Source: Muribaculaceae bacterium
Lineage (GTDB): Bacteria; Bacteroidota; Bacteroidia; Bacteroidales; Muribaculaceae
NCBI GenBank assembly: GCA_017557425.1
Contig: JAFYYU010000012.1
Location: 1-64,000, forward strand
Reading direction: 5' to 3'
Length of the DNA stretch: 64,000 nt
Within the stretch, counting starts at the first letter, position 1; each line of letters begins with the position of its first letter. Positions 5,584 through 10,381 of the stretch are shown one piece after another. The notes beneath the pieces were generated by a model. The model saw only the letters and a program-made list of their open reading frames with translations, was not told the DNA's origin and did no database searches. The position numbers and the translations under genes were made by a program.

Positions 5584-5646
5584 ATAAAAAGTTGTCATTT
5601 CTACGTTTTTTTAAATGAATATTATCTAAGCACATCAAAAAATTGC

Positions 5647-5655
5647 TATCTTTGC
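5647..5655 (+). promoter_or_regulatory. Promoter -7 box for the candidate non-coding RNA
   Basis: TATCTTTGC on the plus strand, divergent from the kinase promoter. The next open reading frame on this strand starts nearly 400 nt downstream, and the intervening DNA folds strongly, so the box most likely drives the structured RNA described next. Confidence 0.6.
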
Positions 5656-5661
5656 ACCAAC

Positions 5662-5985
5662 TCATTGACGGTTTCAGGTCGCAGCGGTGGCCACTATAAC
5701 TCCGTCAATGAACACATATTAGATACAGGCGTTTTCTGTAACGCTTTGGTTTTGACACCTCAAGAATCTCGCAAATTCTAAACGAAAAGTCAAAAACAAA
5801 GCAGCGGGAACGCCCCTATTGATGTACTATATCCATTTCACGGGTCATCGCAAGGTGGCTTACGAGATATGATATACGCATCATAGTGGGGCTTTGTCGC
5901 TGCTCGTTCTGACTTTTCGGGCATGCGAGAGCCTTTGAGGTGTGGAACTGAGCAGCAGACTTGGCTCCACGCTTTGTTTTTAATA
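5662..5985 (+). ncRNA. Candidate structured non-coding RNA, 6S-like rod
   Basis: The stretch has no good ORF but strong pairing. A first hairpin joins CATTGACGG and CCGTCAATG (about 5662-5709), and a second small one GCGTT/AACGC (5730-5744). Then a near-200-nt rod (about 5752-5945) pairs in matched segments separated by small internal loops: ACACCTCAA with TTGAGGTGT, TCTCGCA with TGCGAGA, CGAAAAGTCA with TGACTTTTCG, GCAGCG with CGCTGC, GCCCC with GGGGC, GATG with CATC. A short hairpin and a T-run (5971-5981) could end it. Rod shape and length resemble 6S RNA, and a Bacteroidales RNA of this sort has been described. A decaying inverted-repeat element is the alternative. Confidence 0.55.
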
Positions 5986-6045
5986 GGTATTACCTCTAAT
6001 TATCAACCTCTGGTTGCCGAGAGCCACAACCATAAATAATGAATT

Positions 6046-8175
6046 ATGGCTTTATCTAATAATCTTCAACTTTTTTGTCCTGTTAGAGGACTATTAACTG
6101 TGAACAAAAAGAGTAAAGATGGGTTGACAGCTACTGAAGAATCATATCGTGTTGAAGCTATAAGATATTTAATATCAAAGGGTTACCCAAAGGAAAACTT
6201 TTGGATTGAGCCCATAATTAAGAAATTTGGAAATGGCGGCAGAAACTGTTTCAGAAGTGATTTCGCCGTTTTGGATATACCTGCCTGTGAGGTGGGGTCT
6301 AATACACCCGATGAGATTTTGAACCATTCTTTGCTAATCTGTGAAGTAAAAAGAGATAACTCAAAGAGTGATTATGTCAAAATTACCCAAGTAAAACCCA
6401 TGTTAGATTTTGCTATAAATCAAAATACCATCGGGTTATACTGGGATAATATTGAAAGAAGGGTCTTTTGGATTGAAATAAACAACAATAAAAAGGAGAT
6501 TAAAGAAGGCCCTATTTCTTTTATACCATCATTTGGCCTATCTGTTAAAACGAAACCTTTGACTTTTAAGACAATTGAACCAGCAGAAAACTTATTAGAT
6601 ACATTTGCAAGAATTGAAGATGTATTGCATCAAGCGGCTTTTGACCCCGAAAAAAGATATGAGATTATACTTCAACTACTCCTCGCAAAGATTTTTGATG
6701 AACATCAATTTGAAACTCGTGAAGATAAACCGTTGGAAATTCAAGATTTTCAAGCTATTGGTACAACACCAGAAATGGCATTGAAAAAAATGGAAAGTGT
6801 CGTAAAAAGAGCGGTTTCATTTTATAGCAAGCATCTACCTAATAAGATCTCTGATGAGTTATTGTTAAATGGCGATCAACTATTACAAGTTCTTCAAATT
6901 CTTGCGCCGATTAAAATAACTCATTCAAAAAGAGATGTTGTGCAAACATTCTACATGAAGTTCGCTAAGGACTTGTATAAATGGGATTTAGCTCAATACT
7001 TTACACCCACAACAGTAACGGATTTCCTTGTAGAGATTGTTAATCCTCAATTTGGTGAACATGTTGCAGACCCTGCATGTGGTAGTGCTGATTTTCTTGT
7101 CGCGGCATTTAGAAAATTAAGGCAATACAATCCTGGCTATGCCGATTGTGTTTGGGGTATAGATAATTCTCCTAATGCGGTTCAAGTTGCTGTTTTGAAT
7201 ATGCTATTGAATGGCGATGGGAAAACAAATATTAATAGAGATGACTCTCTGGCAAATGTGAGTGATTATCTTGAGCGTTTTGATGTGATCACTTGTAATC
7301 CGCCTTTTGGTAGTAAGATTGTTGAGAAAAGAAAAGCTGTTCTTAAACAATATGATTTAGGTTTTGAGTGGGAACTTGGAAAAGATTATTACTATAATAA
7401 AACTGATAAATTGCTTTCAAGTCAAGAGACAGGCATTCTTTTTATTGAAACATGTATAAAAGAATGTAAACCAGGTGGTCGGATTGCTATAATATTGCCA
7501 AATGGATATCTTGGTAATCGTTCACCAAAGTATAGGATAGTTAGGGAATGGATCCTAAAACACACTAAAATTGCAGCAATTATCTCCTTGCCTAGATTCA
7601 CTTTTAAATCAAGTGGAGCTGATGTTAGCGCTTCTGTTCTTTATTTAGAAAAACGCCATACAACTATCAAATTATTTAATGAAGACCATATTTATCGTTT
7701 TGCAGTTGAACTTATTGAAAAGGTCGGTTGGGATGCTGGAAATAAGAAAGCACAACCAATCTATAAACGTAACAAAGATGATGGTAGCCTTATTATAGAT
7801 AAAGATGGAGACCCTATTTTAGATTGCGATTTCATGCCTGCTGTAGATAGAATTGTCAATAGTGATGCTGCAAATTGTTTTGAATGGTTAAATAAAAATC
7901 GTCAATCTCACTATAATCCAGAAAGTTGGTCGATTGGTATTGACCTTGTTTATGCAGACCCCGACTTAACACTAGACCCCAAAAGATATGGTAGAAAGGT
8001 CATGCAATTAAGAGAAAAATTATCTAAGAATCCACATGTTCTTCTTGGTAATATTGTCGATTTCATACCAGAGTGTCAAACAAGTGATGGCTTAAAGATT
8101 AGAATAAATAAATCGGCAATATATAACTATTGTATCGTCCTAAAAAAAGTTGACTTGGGAAGTGTTAATAATTAG
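6046..8175 (+). pseudogene. Single-chain restriction-modification enzyme, 5' part (disrupted by IS)
   Basis: Fused nuclease and N6-adenine methyltransferase, as in type IIG/type I-like systems. Residues 30-130 resemble the HsdR N-terminal nuclease fold, with Asp72 in RSDFAVLD and Glu100-x-Lys102 in ICEVKRD. A helical HsdM-like region follows, then methylase motif I DPACGSADFL (from residue 342) and motif IV NPPF (residue 418). The target-recognition part starts near residue 660 and is broken after Tyr695 (base 8130) by an IS3-family element. The last 14 codons to the stop at 8175 are IS sequence. The truncated protein keeps nuclease and methylase motifs but loses most of its recognition domain, so it is probably inactive. 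AT-rich relative to its neighbours. Rest of gene at 9691-10194. Confidence 0.88.
8131..8154 (+). repeat. IS left terminal inverted repeat
   Basis: 24-nt end of the IS, lying inside the residual reading frame of the restriction gene. It pairs with 9664-9687 with five mismatches; the cores GTCCTAAAA and GTTGAC are shared. Confidence 0.88.
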
Positions 8176-8229
8176 TTAACTCAATAATGAGGATTACGGG
8201 TAATTGGCTCCGAGTCCTTGTTGTTTGCA

Positions 8230-8265
8230 TAAAATGGTGTGGGGCTCGATGCCCCACCCATTTTA
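8230..8265 (-). terminator. Hairpin terminator after the transposase gene
   Basis: TAAAATGG-(T)-GTGGGGC (8230-8245) pairs with GCCCCAC-CCATTTTA (8251-8265) around loop TCGAT, a 15-bp stem with one bulged base. It overlaps the end of orfB and lies inside the IS, so it could end transposase transcripts and also block read-through from the host gene. Confidence 0.65.
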
Positions 8266-9210
8266 AGGTGGACTACGGTCCAAATGGTCGTCGTCCCTGT
8301 TGTTTGCATCGGCAAAGGTATTATTTTTCTGTGACATATCATTGCTTTTGTAATAATATGGTTTCCACACTCTGATTAGCTCGCCGTTCATATGGTGGGC
8401 TTCTTCAGGTGTAAAATAGCCCAGACTGAGATGAGGCCGCTTCGAGTTATAGATGTTGATAATGTCTTTCAGCTTTGCCTCTGCATTGTCCTCTGTCAGA
8501 TCCGCCAACTCAATGAACTCTTTCTTCAAAATGCCGTTAACACGTTCAGCTATGGCATTCTGGCGCGGGTCTCCATTCTCTGTCATGCTTGGCATGATTC
8601 CGTGTTTCTTAAGCAGCGCTATGTATTTACTCGCACAGTACTGTGTGCCTCTATCGCTGTGATGGATGAGCCCTCTCGTGCTTTCACACTGCCTAATCGC
8701 CATCTTCAGTGCTTCGACCGCATTGATCGTGAACAGAGTGTCGGAAAACTTCCAGCCAACAATTTTCTTTGAGTAAGCATCGGTGATCAAGTATAGGTAA
8801 TAGAATTTATCTCCCATCAGTATATAGGTGATATCACTTACCCATATCTCGTTTGGACGGCTTGGCACGACATCAATAATGGCGTTCGGATAAATGTGGA
8901 AATGATGCTTCGAGAATGTTGTCCGGGTTCTGTTCCTGCGAGGCTTAGCCAGCATTCCTGCCATCCGAAGGATGTCAAATAGCCTGTCCCTGCCAATCTC
9001 AAGACCGTAATTCTTTGCCAACATGTACTGCAGCTTGCGCACACCGATGCGAGGCATCATTGCGCGGATTTCCTTAACTGTCTCCAGCACCATGTCCTCC
9101 TGGACGGACGACAGGTGTTTGCGGTTAAGGCTTTGGTAATAAGCTTGTGTGCTATAGCCAAACAATTCACACAGATAATCCACCCTCAACCAAGGGAAAT
9201 CTGTGCGCAA
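8263..9210 (-). CDS. IS3-family transposase OrfB (DDE integrase core)
   Basis: Catalytic half of the transposase. The 315 residues include an N-terminal HTH_21-like region (MMPRIGVRKLQYMLAK) and the rve integrase core. The DDE triad can be read: Asp in WVSDITYI, Asp in HHSDRGTQY, and Glu in NAIAERVNG, with the usual conserved Lys/Arg nearby. The listed start is a TTG. In this family OrfB is normally made as an OrfAB fusion, and the frame is indeed open upstream to a slippery A-AAA-AAA at 9234-9240. The last 35 residues (after VWKPYYYK) are polar and end within the IS left arm. Confidence 0.92.
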   Translation of the reverse strand: MRTDFPWLRVDYLCELFGYSTQAYYQSLNRKHLSSVQEDMVLETVKEIRAMMPRIGVRKLQYMLAKNYGLEIGRDRLFDILRMAGMLAKPRRNRTRTTFSKHHFHIYPNAIIDVVPSRPNEIWVSDITYILMGDKFYYLYLITDAYSKKIVGWKFSDTLFTINAVEALKMAIRQCESTRGLIHHSDRGTQYCASKYIALLKKHGIMPSMTENGDPRQNAIAERVNGILKKEFIELADLTEDNAEAKLKDIINIYNSKRPHLSLGYFTPEEAHHMNGELIRVWKPYYYKSNDMSQKNNTFADANNRDDDHLDRSPP

Positions 9211-9215
9211 GCTCT

Positions 9216-9641
9216 CTATTGTTTGGCTCCAGATTTTTTTCTTATAGGTACCTCGTATGTGCGTTCCGCAATGTCGATCATACGGTTCAGCGCAAGCGTC
9301 ATCGTTCGCTCACGCTCCAACTCGGTGCGCAGGCGATTGATCTCCTGGTCCTTGGCAATCTCAGCCTCTGTAGGACGGACTACCGCTGGTTTGGGCTCGG
9401 CCTTTTTCACTCTTTGACGTTTCTCTTCTTTCATCAGACGCTCATAAGCTTCTTCTGGTGTCTCCGGGATGATTTGCTTTCCATCAGAATACTTTCTAAT
9501 CCATTTGAGCAATGTGCAATGACCTCGAACACCGTACTTGTCCATGATGCGTTGCTTGCACCGCCCACCGATGTTTAAGTACTCTTGGACAATCATTCGC
9601 TTCTCATCGTCCGAAAATCGCTTTCCTTGTTGACGTATCAT
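9216..9641 (-). CDS. IS3-family transposase OrfA (HTH and leucine zipper)
   Basis: DNA-binding half of the transposase, 141 residues. The N-terminal segment (FSDDEKRMIVQEYL to CTLLKWIRKY) is the helix-turn-helix that recognises the IS ends. The C-terminal third (AEIAKDQEINRLRTELERER and on) is a coiled-coil zipper used for multimerisation. The stop lies at 9216-9218, 16 codon-equivalents after the slippery site, which is the arrangement needed for a -1 shift into OrfB. OrfA alone usually represses transposition in this family. Confidence 0.9.
   Translation of the reverse strand: MIRQQGKRFSDDEKRMIVQEYLNIGGRCKQRIMDKYGVRGHCTLLKWIRKYSDGKQIIPETPEEAYERLMKEEKRQRVKKAEPKPAVVRPTEAEIAKDQEINRLRTELERERTMTLALNRMIDIAERTYEVPIRKKSGAKQ
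9234..9240 (-). promoter_or_regulatory. Programmed -1 frameshift site
   Basis: On the minus strand seven A residues in the phase A-AAA-AAA occur at the end of orfA. Slipping back one base gives IWSQTIESLRTDFPW, which runs straight into orfB without a stop. This is the standard way of making the OrfAB transposase. Confidence 0.8.
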
Positions 9642-9663
9642 TCTAAAAAAAGTTTAATTTTTC

Positions 9664-9687
9664 GTCAACATATTTTAGGACTAGACA
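9664..9687 (-). repeat. IS right terminal inverted repeat
   Basis: Partner of the repeat at 8131-8154, located 22 nt upstream of orfA. It directly abuts the second TAT target copy at 9688-9690. Confidence 0.88.
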
Positions 9688-9690
9688 TAT

Positions 9691-10194
9691 ATTGAAATAC
9701 AGGATATTACTCAAGGAGATTTTAATAGTAAGGAGTTAAGGGGTTGGGAACTTCCAAGTAGAGCAAAGCATTTTGCAGAACCTAATGACATTTATTTTGG
9801 TTCAATATGGGGTAGTGCTGTTAAATGGTGCTATATACCTGATAATGCAAATAATATAGTTGTTACAAATGGTTGTTTCAGGTGCCGAATAAAAGACAAA
9901 ATGAAACACCTCCTACCTGATTTGTTGTCATACTTGAATAGTGAGGGATGGGCTGTTCAAATGCGCTCCTTATCTAGAGGCTCTGATGGCTTGGCTGAAA
10001 TATGTATTGAAGATGCCTCAAGTATTATCATCCCATTGTTAAGTGATGCAGTGAGGAGTGAAATCATGCCTACAATTAATGCTCTACAAACAGGAACAAC
10101 AACATTGAATTCAATCATAAAGGGCCATATTAAATCAAATACAGTCAATTATAATGATCCTCCGAAACGTCCAAGTCATATTGTGCTTGTGTAA
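9691..10194 (+). pseudogene. Restriction-modification enzyme, 3' part (recognition domain)
   Basis: Downstream fragment of the gene begun at 6046. Translation from 9691 is open for 167 codons and starts IEIQDITQGDFNSKELRGWE, which continues directly from ...KSAIYNY at base 8130 once the IS and one TAT copy are removed. The content fits an HsdS-like target-recognition domain: GWELPSRAKHF, an IYFGSIWGSAVKW strand pair, a VVTNGCFRC motif and a coiled segment near the C-terminus. The fragment has no start of its own; the ATG at 9901 is internal. The restored protein would be about 862 residues. Confidence 0.85.
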
Positions 10195-10381
10195 TGACGA
10201 TTAAATGTGATAAGCAAACCTTTATTATCTGTTTTTTTGAAAGTAGCGATTATTACTGTTTTGTCGGTTTGAAGATGTCTGTAAGGCTGACGTTGATTAT
10301 GTGTTAGGTAAAGGAAAACGAGATGCTGGAAAGCATGCGGATGCCAATTCGTTAAATTCGCGCAATTCGTAGTTTAAAAAG
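10195..10381. other. Intergenic stretch, nothing assigned
   Basis: 187 nt between the restriction gene remnant and the TonB receptor, which converge here. No gene, RNA or clean terminator was found. The text near 10345-10370 contains a short ATTCGTTAAATTCG motif similar to one at 56718-56735. Confidence 0.4.

Follow-up and report, generated by a model that had tools for sequence, protein, structure and literature searches.

What has been lost when an insertion sequence (IS) splits a restriction–modification (RM) gene, and what would have controlled that gene while it was whole? Both questions are raised by a locus in the first 64,000 nucleotides (nt) of contig JAFYYU010000012.1 from a Muribaculaceae bacterium (assembly GCA_017557425.1), a stretch that we call the window. 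In this locus, an RM gene is interrupted by an IS3-family element and preceded by a long non-coding leader. We consider it reasonably likely that the whole is an IS-broken RM unit with a transcription-attenuator leader shared by many Bacteroidales genes. We treat the upstream leader RNA first, as it tells us more than any other part of the locus.

The assembly comprises 2.58 Mb in 24 contigs, with 85% completeness and 4.5% contamination, and the window lies within a contig of 324,972 bases (C9). Comparisons were made with 101 genomes of the genus and with an even draw of the order containing 247 genomes from 174 genera; the genome carrying the window is counted in both sets.

A structured RNA ahead of the RM gene

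The leader is a non-coding stretch at approximately 5647–5990 on the forward strand, corresponding to an RNA of about 330 nt, and lies directly 5′ of the RM gene. It begins with a TAnnTTTG box (TATCTTTG, 5647–5654), which we take to be the −7 promoter consensus of Bacteroidetes. A −7/−33 motif is mentioned in a passage of PMC7366714. The box is followed by a predicted 5′ hairpin (5662–5711), similar in sequence in the eight closest copies, that of the window included, and by a core with a covarying fold (5713–5987). The core ends in a terminator-like hairpin (GUGGA...UCCAC) with a U-rich tail (5942–5985). The region 5658–6045 folds far better than its shuffled counterparts (z = −8.1). An alignment of 21 copies, which was not fitted to structure, showed compensatory (two-sided) changes in 21 of 45 base pairs and served as the source of a covariance model (R1) of 279 positions and those 45 pairs. 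We then aligned 83 R1 matches to the model, an alignment that is hence structure-fitted and includes two weak opposite-strand matches. In it, 96.2% of 3649 cells were paired, and two-sided changes occurred in 699 cells, compared with 57–121 when the partner strand was slid; 32 of the 45 pairs showed such changes. Judged by this covariation, the leader is a conserved structured RNA.

The 3′ strand of the closing helix, GUGGAAC, is central to how the leader could work. It is paired within that helix in 96.8% of cells and can pair alternatively in the terminator stem in 94.3% of 403 cells, where 21 cells carry two-sided changes against 0–5 with slid strands. A further segment, GUUGCUC, may exchange helix 5 for the GAGCAAC of the terminator, a pairing possible in 97.5% of cells compared with 32–56% when slid. 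A closing helix, a terminator and a GUUGCUC alternative that overlap one another amount to the usual anatomy of an attenuator. Two observations weigh against this assignment. Terminator-stem slides of −2 and +2, two of the six controls, reach 88.9% and 96.0% pairing, so the pairing count says little when taken alone; and the GUUGCUC–GAGCAAC match consists mostly of conserved sequence and G-U pairs, with only 7 two-sided-change cells. For the leader of the window, the one copy computed, a fold with the terminator is 4.4 kcal/mol less stable than the optimum, so that the two states are close in energy.

Features around the core were assessed in 80 leader contexts, consisting of 19 fetched by BLAST similarity, that of the window and the next 60 by score from more than 150 listed R1 matches. 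The set was not sampled at random, and copies that share a site do not count as independent. A truncated copy (L130) was excluded from alignments and contexts alike; L137 is part of the model alignment and lies outside the 80 contexts. A TAnnTTTG box precedes the core at a distance of no more than 170 nt in 79 of the 80 copies (17 of 20 in other genera), as opposed to 29 of 241 windows upstream of open reading frames (ORFs) of at least 250 aa at the same loci. A run of at least four T residues marked the 3′ end in 65 copies (18 of the 20 from other genera), whereas 10.5 would be expected from windows 200–500 nt upstream. Both sets of control windows are rough, since their coding content was unmatched. 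By the shape of the terminator, the copies fall into two groups, with 37 in group A, 38 in group B and 5 unclear.

No Rfam 15 family, the T-box included, matched the leader at the gathering threshold in the window or at 17 further loci, nor did any match two copies searched at E ≤ 1. Two weak matches to the leader region (E 1.8 and 2.1) were far under the cut-offs, and the 17 further loci returned only two transfer RNAs, both outside the leader. The only gathering-threshold Rfam match in the window is elsewhere, at 1865–1902, to the S4-Bacteroidia ribosomal protein leader (RF03139). By title and the opening of the abstract, no description of such an RNA was found in the literature searched; the supplementary candidates of PMC8040213, which number in the thousands, may include the leader unnamed.

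Distribution of the leader and exchange of the genes behind it

Leader copies were detected in 70 of the 101 genus genomes at E ≤ 1e-5, with up to 14 copies per genome, and in 31 of the 247 order genomes, representing 26 of the 174 genera, at E ≤ 1e-6. A plain sequence search with 5600–6045 matched 25 of the 101 genus genomes. No match was found in plasmids or phages by blastn, or in viral contigs with one exact pattern. Two more copies occur in the genome of the window itself, at G000:C15:117887-118131 and G000:C14:116916-117155; by eye, the former precedes zinc-ribbon and EcsC-like genes.

The copies are consistently oriented toward the gene that follows. Taking the first ORF of at least 100 aa as the downstream gene, it lay on the same strand in 75 of the 80 contexts and on the opposite strand in 3, with none in the 2 that reach contig ends, and the median gap was 49 nt. 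The first upstream gene was on the same strand in 38 contexts and on the opposite one in 35, with none in 7. Among 20 copies from 12 other genera, the next gene was co-directional in 18 and opposite in 2. This placement bears on the possibility that the element, equipped with a promoter and a terminator of its own, is a separate non-coding RNA that acts in trans and only happens to lie upstream of genes. Such an RNA would be expected to have the promoter box and 3′ T-run seen in 79 and 65 of the 80 copies, but it would not account for a next gene so regularly near and co-directional, within the genus and beyond it, and up to 14 copies in a genome would be redundant. We regard this possibility as unlikely.

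To describe the genes behind the leader, we took as followers those genes that come first downstream, run in the same direction and begin no more than 400 nt away (73 genes); the control consisted of the genes that come first upstream at up to 900 nt (also 73). Among the Pfam matches listed (25 of 48 families), followers contained N6_Mtase (10), dockerin (8), Big_2 (7), LRR_5 (6), N6_N4_Mtase (5), SNF2 (3), PLD (3), FHA (2) and protein kinase (2) domains. In PADLOC searches at E ≤ 1e-10, the type I, II and IIG methylase models matched at most 9 followers each and mad2 matched 10, largely the same proteins, while type III models matched 5 of the 73. At the same threshold, none of the 73 upstream genes matched a type I, II, IIG or III methylase model or mad2. 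Altogether, about 19 of the 73 followers, a quarter, are defence-like, namely the members of the two methylase families just listed, one cytosine methylase (L122) and the PLD/SNF2 genes.

Several points count against the leader being a switch for defence genes. The contexts come from the top of a score-ordered list and are thus biased towards copies resembling the leader of the RM gene. The majority of followers cannot be recognised as defence genes, with dockerin, Big_2 and leucine-rich secreted proteins being common, and dockerins are about as frequent upstream (7 of 73) as downstream (8 of 73). Some upstream genes also match PADLOC models (PDC-S01, PDC-M16A, AbiD, AriAB and others), with at most 4 genes per model. 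Out of 10 chosen followers of unclear nature, 5 had no PADLOC match at 1e-5; the others matched TerY (L128), PD-T4-6-like kinases (L127 and L229), a HerA-like protein (L215) and, weakly, an RT-protease model (L124). The absence of methylases upstream, set against the other PADLOC models and dockerins that do occur there, indicates that the association of the leader with defence is real yet not exclusive. By a crude N-terminal rule, 7 of the 35 genes behind group A leaders and 22 of the 38 behind group B leaders look secreted.

Two kinds of gene set behind the leader were also observed. Sets of von Willebrand-, PP2C- and kinase-like genes, mostly named by eye, occur at L128, L126, L127 and L279. 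At L193, L200 and L241, the leader is followed by mutually similar genes of 1134–1158 aa, of which that at L193 matches PLD/SNF2 helicase models; at L193 and L241 a gene of 659–674 aa comes next, making these candidate defence operons.

The relationship between leader and gene was compared at one site, running from an amylase-like gene to a gene that looks peptidase-like by eye, where the leader is found with RM genes of four dissimilar kinds. It is represented by loci G019:C40, G032:C4, G034:C62, G057:C46, G123:C37 and G133:C61 (L118, L119, L120, L123, L188 and L190), and one of the two neighbours is also present in G054 and G108. Between G019 and G032, the leaders agree at 97%, whereas the similarity of the RM genes is limited to a single 85-residue stretch at 32%; between G123 and G034, leaders that are 96% identical stand in front of RM genes sharing 362 residues at 27%. 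The leader identities of G133b were not used in this comparison. Likewise, 5600–6045 of the window matches G034 at 80% over 405 bases, and the RM gene behind it there is 30% identical. Conversely, six homologues of the window's RM gene, that of genome G043 and five more distant ones described below, have no leader directly upstream, which speaks against a fixed pairing of leader and gene. Because similar leaders precede dissimilar RM genes and these six homologues lack a leader, the leader seems, from the sequences compared, to be tied to the site or the host and not to the RM gene.

Leaders that precede long, varied and exchanged genes would also be expected if the element were a processive antitermination or anti-Rho device for long horizontally acquired genes instead of a signal switch, and elements of this kind, such as EAR, put and JUMPstart, are known elsewhere. 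A conserved terminator that overlaps the closing helix fits a local choice better, and short genes are found behind the leader as well, which makes antitermination a doubtful explanation. The near-identity of leaders in front of dissimilar genes at one site, together with several copies per genome, could alternatively point to a DNA feature, that is, a mobile repeat or a recombination socket for cassette exchange whose RNA fold is incidental. This is very unlikely given the compensatory changes with many G-U pairs and the strand-specific promoter box and U-run.

The interrupted gene and the age of the break

The leader, the RM gene and the IS form an extra unit (5601–10381, forward strand) flanked by a ROK gene and a TonB-type gene, which are close neighbours in most relatives showing both. 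A search for ROK loci returned 30 from 46 genomes with a match, leaving 28 same-genus loci once those of the window and genome G002 were set aside. For 20 of the 28, the retrieved flank included the TonB-type gene. The aligned ends of the two genes lay 40–293 nt apart in 17 of these 20 loci and 757–1233 nt apart in the remaining 3. This gap is where the RM unit sits in the window and in G002, whereas G043 and the window have only the coding sequence in common.

The first part of the RM gene (6046–8130, forward strand) is open for 695 codons and encodes an N-terminal region with a putative nuclease motif, an N6-adenine methyltransferase and the start of the recognition domain. Inside the IS, the frame runs on for 14 codons until it meets a stop whose last base is 8175. 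The second part (9691–10194, forward strand) is a single open frame of 167 codons and a stop, and encodes the greater part of the one target-recognition domain together with the C-terminus. The methylase is matched by N6_Mtase (PF02384) with an E-value of 5.7e-34 at residues 305–543 and is of the gamma class of N6-adenine methyltransferases; its NPPF motif is present in every aligned homologue. The second part has weak matches to specificity subunits (mad5, 1.1e-7; Specificity_I, 1.3e-4).

Each of the two parts was compared with homologues separately. The first part is 89% identical to the homologues of G002 (L003, the same as L077) and G043 (L004, the same as L083), and the second part is 85–90% identical to them in protein. 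The intact G043 homologue reads through the insertion point with a single TAT and has 862 aa, and that of G002 also has 862 aa counted from the equivalent start. In all 7 named homologue loci, these two included, the whole protein is encoded in one chain of 860–863 residues. The original prediction had taken the two pieces to be one RM polypeptide of about 862 codons, and the uninterrupted one-chain homologues in related genomes, the read-through in G043 and the open second part bear it out. The other five homologues (L078–L082) are full length and 65–78% identical to the G043 protein. Three of them are labelled Oscillospiraceae, one Bacteroidales and one uncultured bacterium, which suggests transfer of the RM gene across phyla, although metagenome-bin labels can err and these may be wrong. 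Inspection by eye revealed no second RM gene next to any of the seven named homologues. In DNA, the first part is nearer to G002 (87% vs 85%) and the second nearer to G043 (86% vs 78%), a split affinity that hints at recombination around the recognition domain.

Viral, phage and plasmid sequences were also searched for relatives of the RM gene. No relative was confirmed among 68 candidate stretches of viral contigs. In the phage set, 85 records matched, and the one above 60% identity is a 4.9-kb fecal contig that carries no annotation and matches in part, at 74%. All 1105 matching plasmid records were below 60% identity, with one covering at least 80% of the query.

The locus is a single-gene RM unit, probably of type IIG-like organisation, in which one chain would combine a nuclease, an N6-adenine methylase and a single recognition domain. 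The putative N-terminal nuclease has no Pfam match in the window gene or its homologues; an hhalign comparison with another leader-linked RM protein covered only residues 164–605, leaving that part unaligned; and the AlphaFold model of an intact homologue was too poor to be used (predicted local distance difference test score of 46). A D...EVK pattern is conserved in this region across all aligned homologues, and one homologue has a sub-threshold Hjc match at 93–128 (E 0.031).

The interruption itself is a 1557-bp element (8131–9687) whose transposase is antisense to the RM gene, flanked by TAT target duplications at 8128–8130 and 9688–9690. Its ends are of the TG...CA type, starting with TGT, and the inverted repeats agree at 20 of 24 bases. 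On the reverse strand, orfA (9216–9641) overlaps the orfB frame (8263–9309; open to 9309; rve, 7.3e-22), and an A7 slippery run within the overlap, near 9234–9240, would allow a −1 frameshift. The orfB transposase scores 246.7 bits against the IS3 family model NF033516, whose curated cut-off is 160. These observations agree with the earlier description of a 695-codon frame at 6046–8130 followed by a 1557-bp IS3-family insert with matching ends and a TAT duplication; that description does not mention the RNA upstream. The element occurs once in the 2.58-Mb assembly and has a DNA match in 6 of the 101 genus genomes, its own included, the best near-full-length relative (G038) being 76% identical; no DNA match was found in the plasmid collection. 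The insert is an ordinary IS3-family element, and its effect on the gene is routine decay.

Both gene parts are open. Codon changes unique to the window lineage were mostly silent (silent to replacing, 58:15 in the first part and 20:4 in the second), similar to those of the intact lineages (67:23 and 121:22 in the first part, 35:9 and 9:5 in the second), in a comparison that leaves out the 75 and 25 codons differing in all three lineages. This absence of relaxation argues that the break is recent, as had been proposed. The product encoded now would have 709 residues, 695 of its own and 14 from the IS. Since almost the whole recognition domain is gone, the truncated protein is most likely inactive; residual activity is possible but unlikely.

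An exact 3-bp duplication and two undamaged gene parts might suggest that the insertion is a reversible on/off state, restored by precise excision, as the original prediction also proposed. This finds no support in the mode of transposition, as IS3-family elements are copy-and-paste (PMC3299598). The transposase would thus leave the donor site unrestored, and the insertion is not a built-in switch. The remaining route of excision is rare and transposase-independent, and we consider a reversible state highly improbable. We give equally little credence to a truncated protein that functions with a specificity subunit supplied in trans. There are precedents for separate RM and S subunits in BcgI (PMC3874165) and likewise in BsaXI, and the BsaXI RM chain matches the window gene. 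Nevertheless, all 7 named homologue loci encode one full-length chain. The sole Methylase_S match in the assembly sits on contig C14 inside a type I set, although this model misses the window gene's own domain, and a divergent partner could escape detection in an assembly that is 85% complete. By eye, that set consists of HsdM, HsdS and HsdR. Finally, a draft assembly with this completeness and contamination might contain artefacts, but the exact duplication at both junctions and an intact, single-copy IS on a contig of 324,972 bases leave that explanation with practically no weight here.

Proposed mechanism and comparison with known systems

Taken together, these data would fit the following course of events. 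A single-gene RM unit, inserted along with a leader between the ROK and TonB-type genes, was recently broken by an IS3-family element that landed after codon 695 and took away nearly all of the recognition domain. Transcription would start at the TAnnTTTG box, and the RNA would fold into a long hairpin whose closing-helix 3′ strand (GUGGAAC) either remains part of the helix or pairs into a terminator immediately ahead of the start codon. While the structure, the placement and the overlapping helices can be read from the sequence, transcription, regulation, the existence of a signal and the assignment of the two folds to off and on states are what we infer from it. The same leader is found in front of many other Bacteroidales genes, defence and surface genes included, and exchange of the genes behind it has taken place. 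Whether it is an attenuator-type leader, undescribed in the literature searched, that acts as a shared switch for unrelated phage-defence systems and some surface proteins, staying in place while the genes change, is a tentative proposal to which we give a little less than an even chance.

If this were true, gut Bacteroidales would share an RNA-based way of keeping restriction and kinase systems, which are costly, silent until a signal arrives, and newly acquired defence genes would plug into an existing regulated socket, a simple route to control. It has long been asked how a cell can safely express RM genes that it has acquired, and the leader offers a directly testable case. The covariance model could be used to find more members of the leader family and to pick out new candidate defence genes.

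Comparison with known systems places the parts of the locus at different distances from what has been described. The insert has the IS3 transposase, two overlapping frames, TG...CA ends and 3-bp duplication of IS3-family elements, and none of the features tested sets it apart from them. The window gene resembles type IIG RM enzymes in having a central N6-adenine methylase and a single C-terminal specificity-like domain in one chain, but its putative N-terminal nuclease is unmatched by any model and its best PADLOC models are type I and II methylases and mad2, not IIG. A likeness to MAD2 and MAD5 of the MADS system is seen in the NCBIfam MAD2 model (3e-61), which spans the methylase part, and in MAD5 models, which touch the recognition part; the scores are far under the curated cut-offs (207.5 of 720 bits and 15.7 of 400).

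As for the leader, JUMPstart, EAR and put are antitermination leader RNAs located before long, varied or foreign operons, a position that the present RNA shares; it differs from them in having no Rfam match and in carrying its own terminator-like hairpin. With respect to attenuation leaders and riboswitches, it differs in matching no Rfam 15 family in the copies examined and in having varied followers rather than those of one pathway. What it has in common with them is a conserved, covarying fold 5′ of genes and a terminator that overlaps the closing helix.

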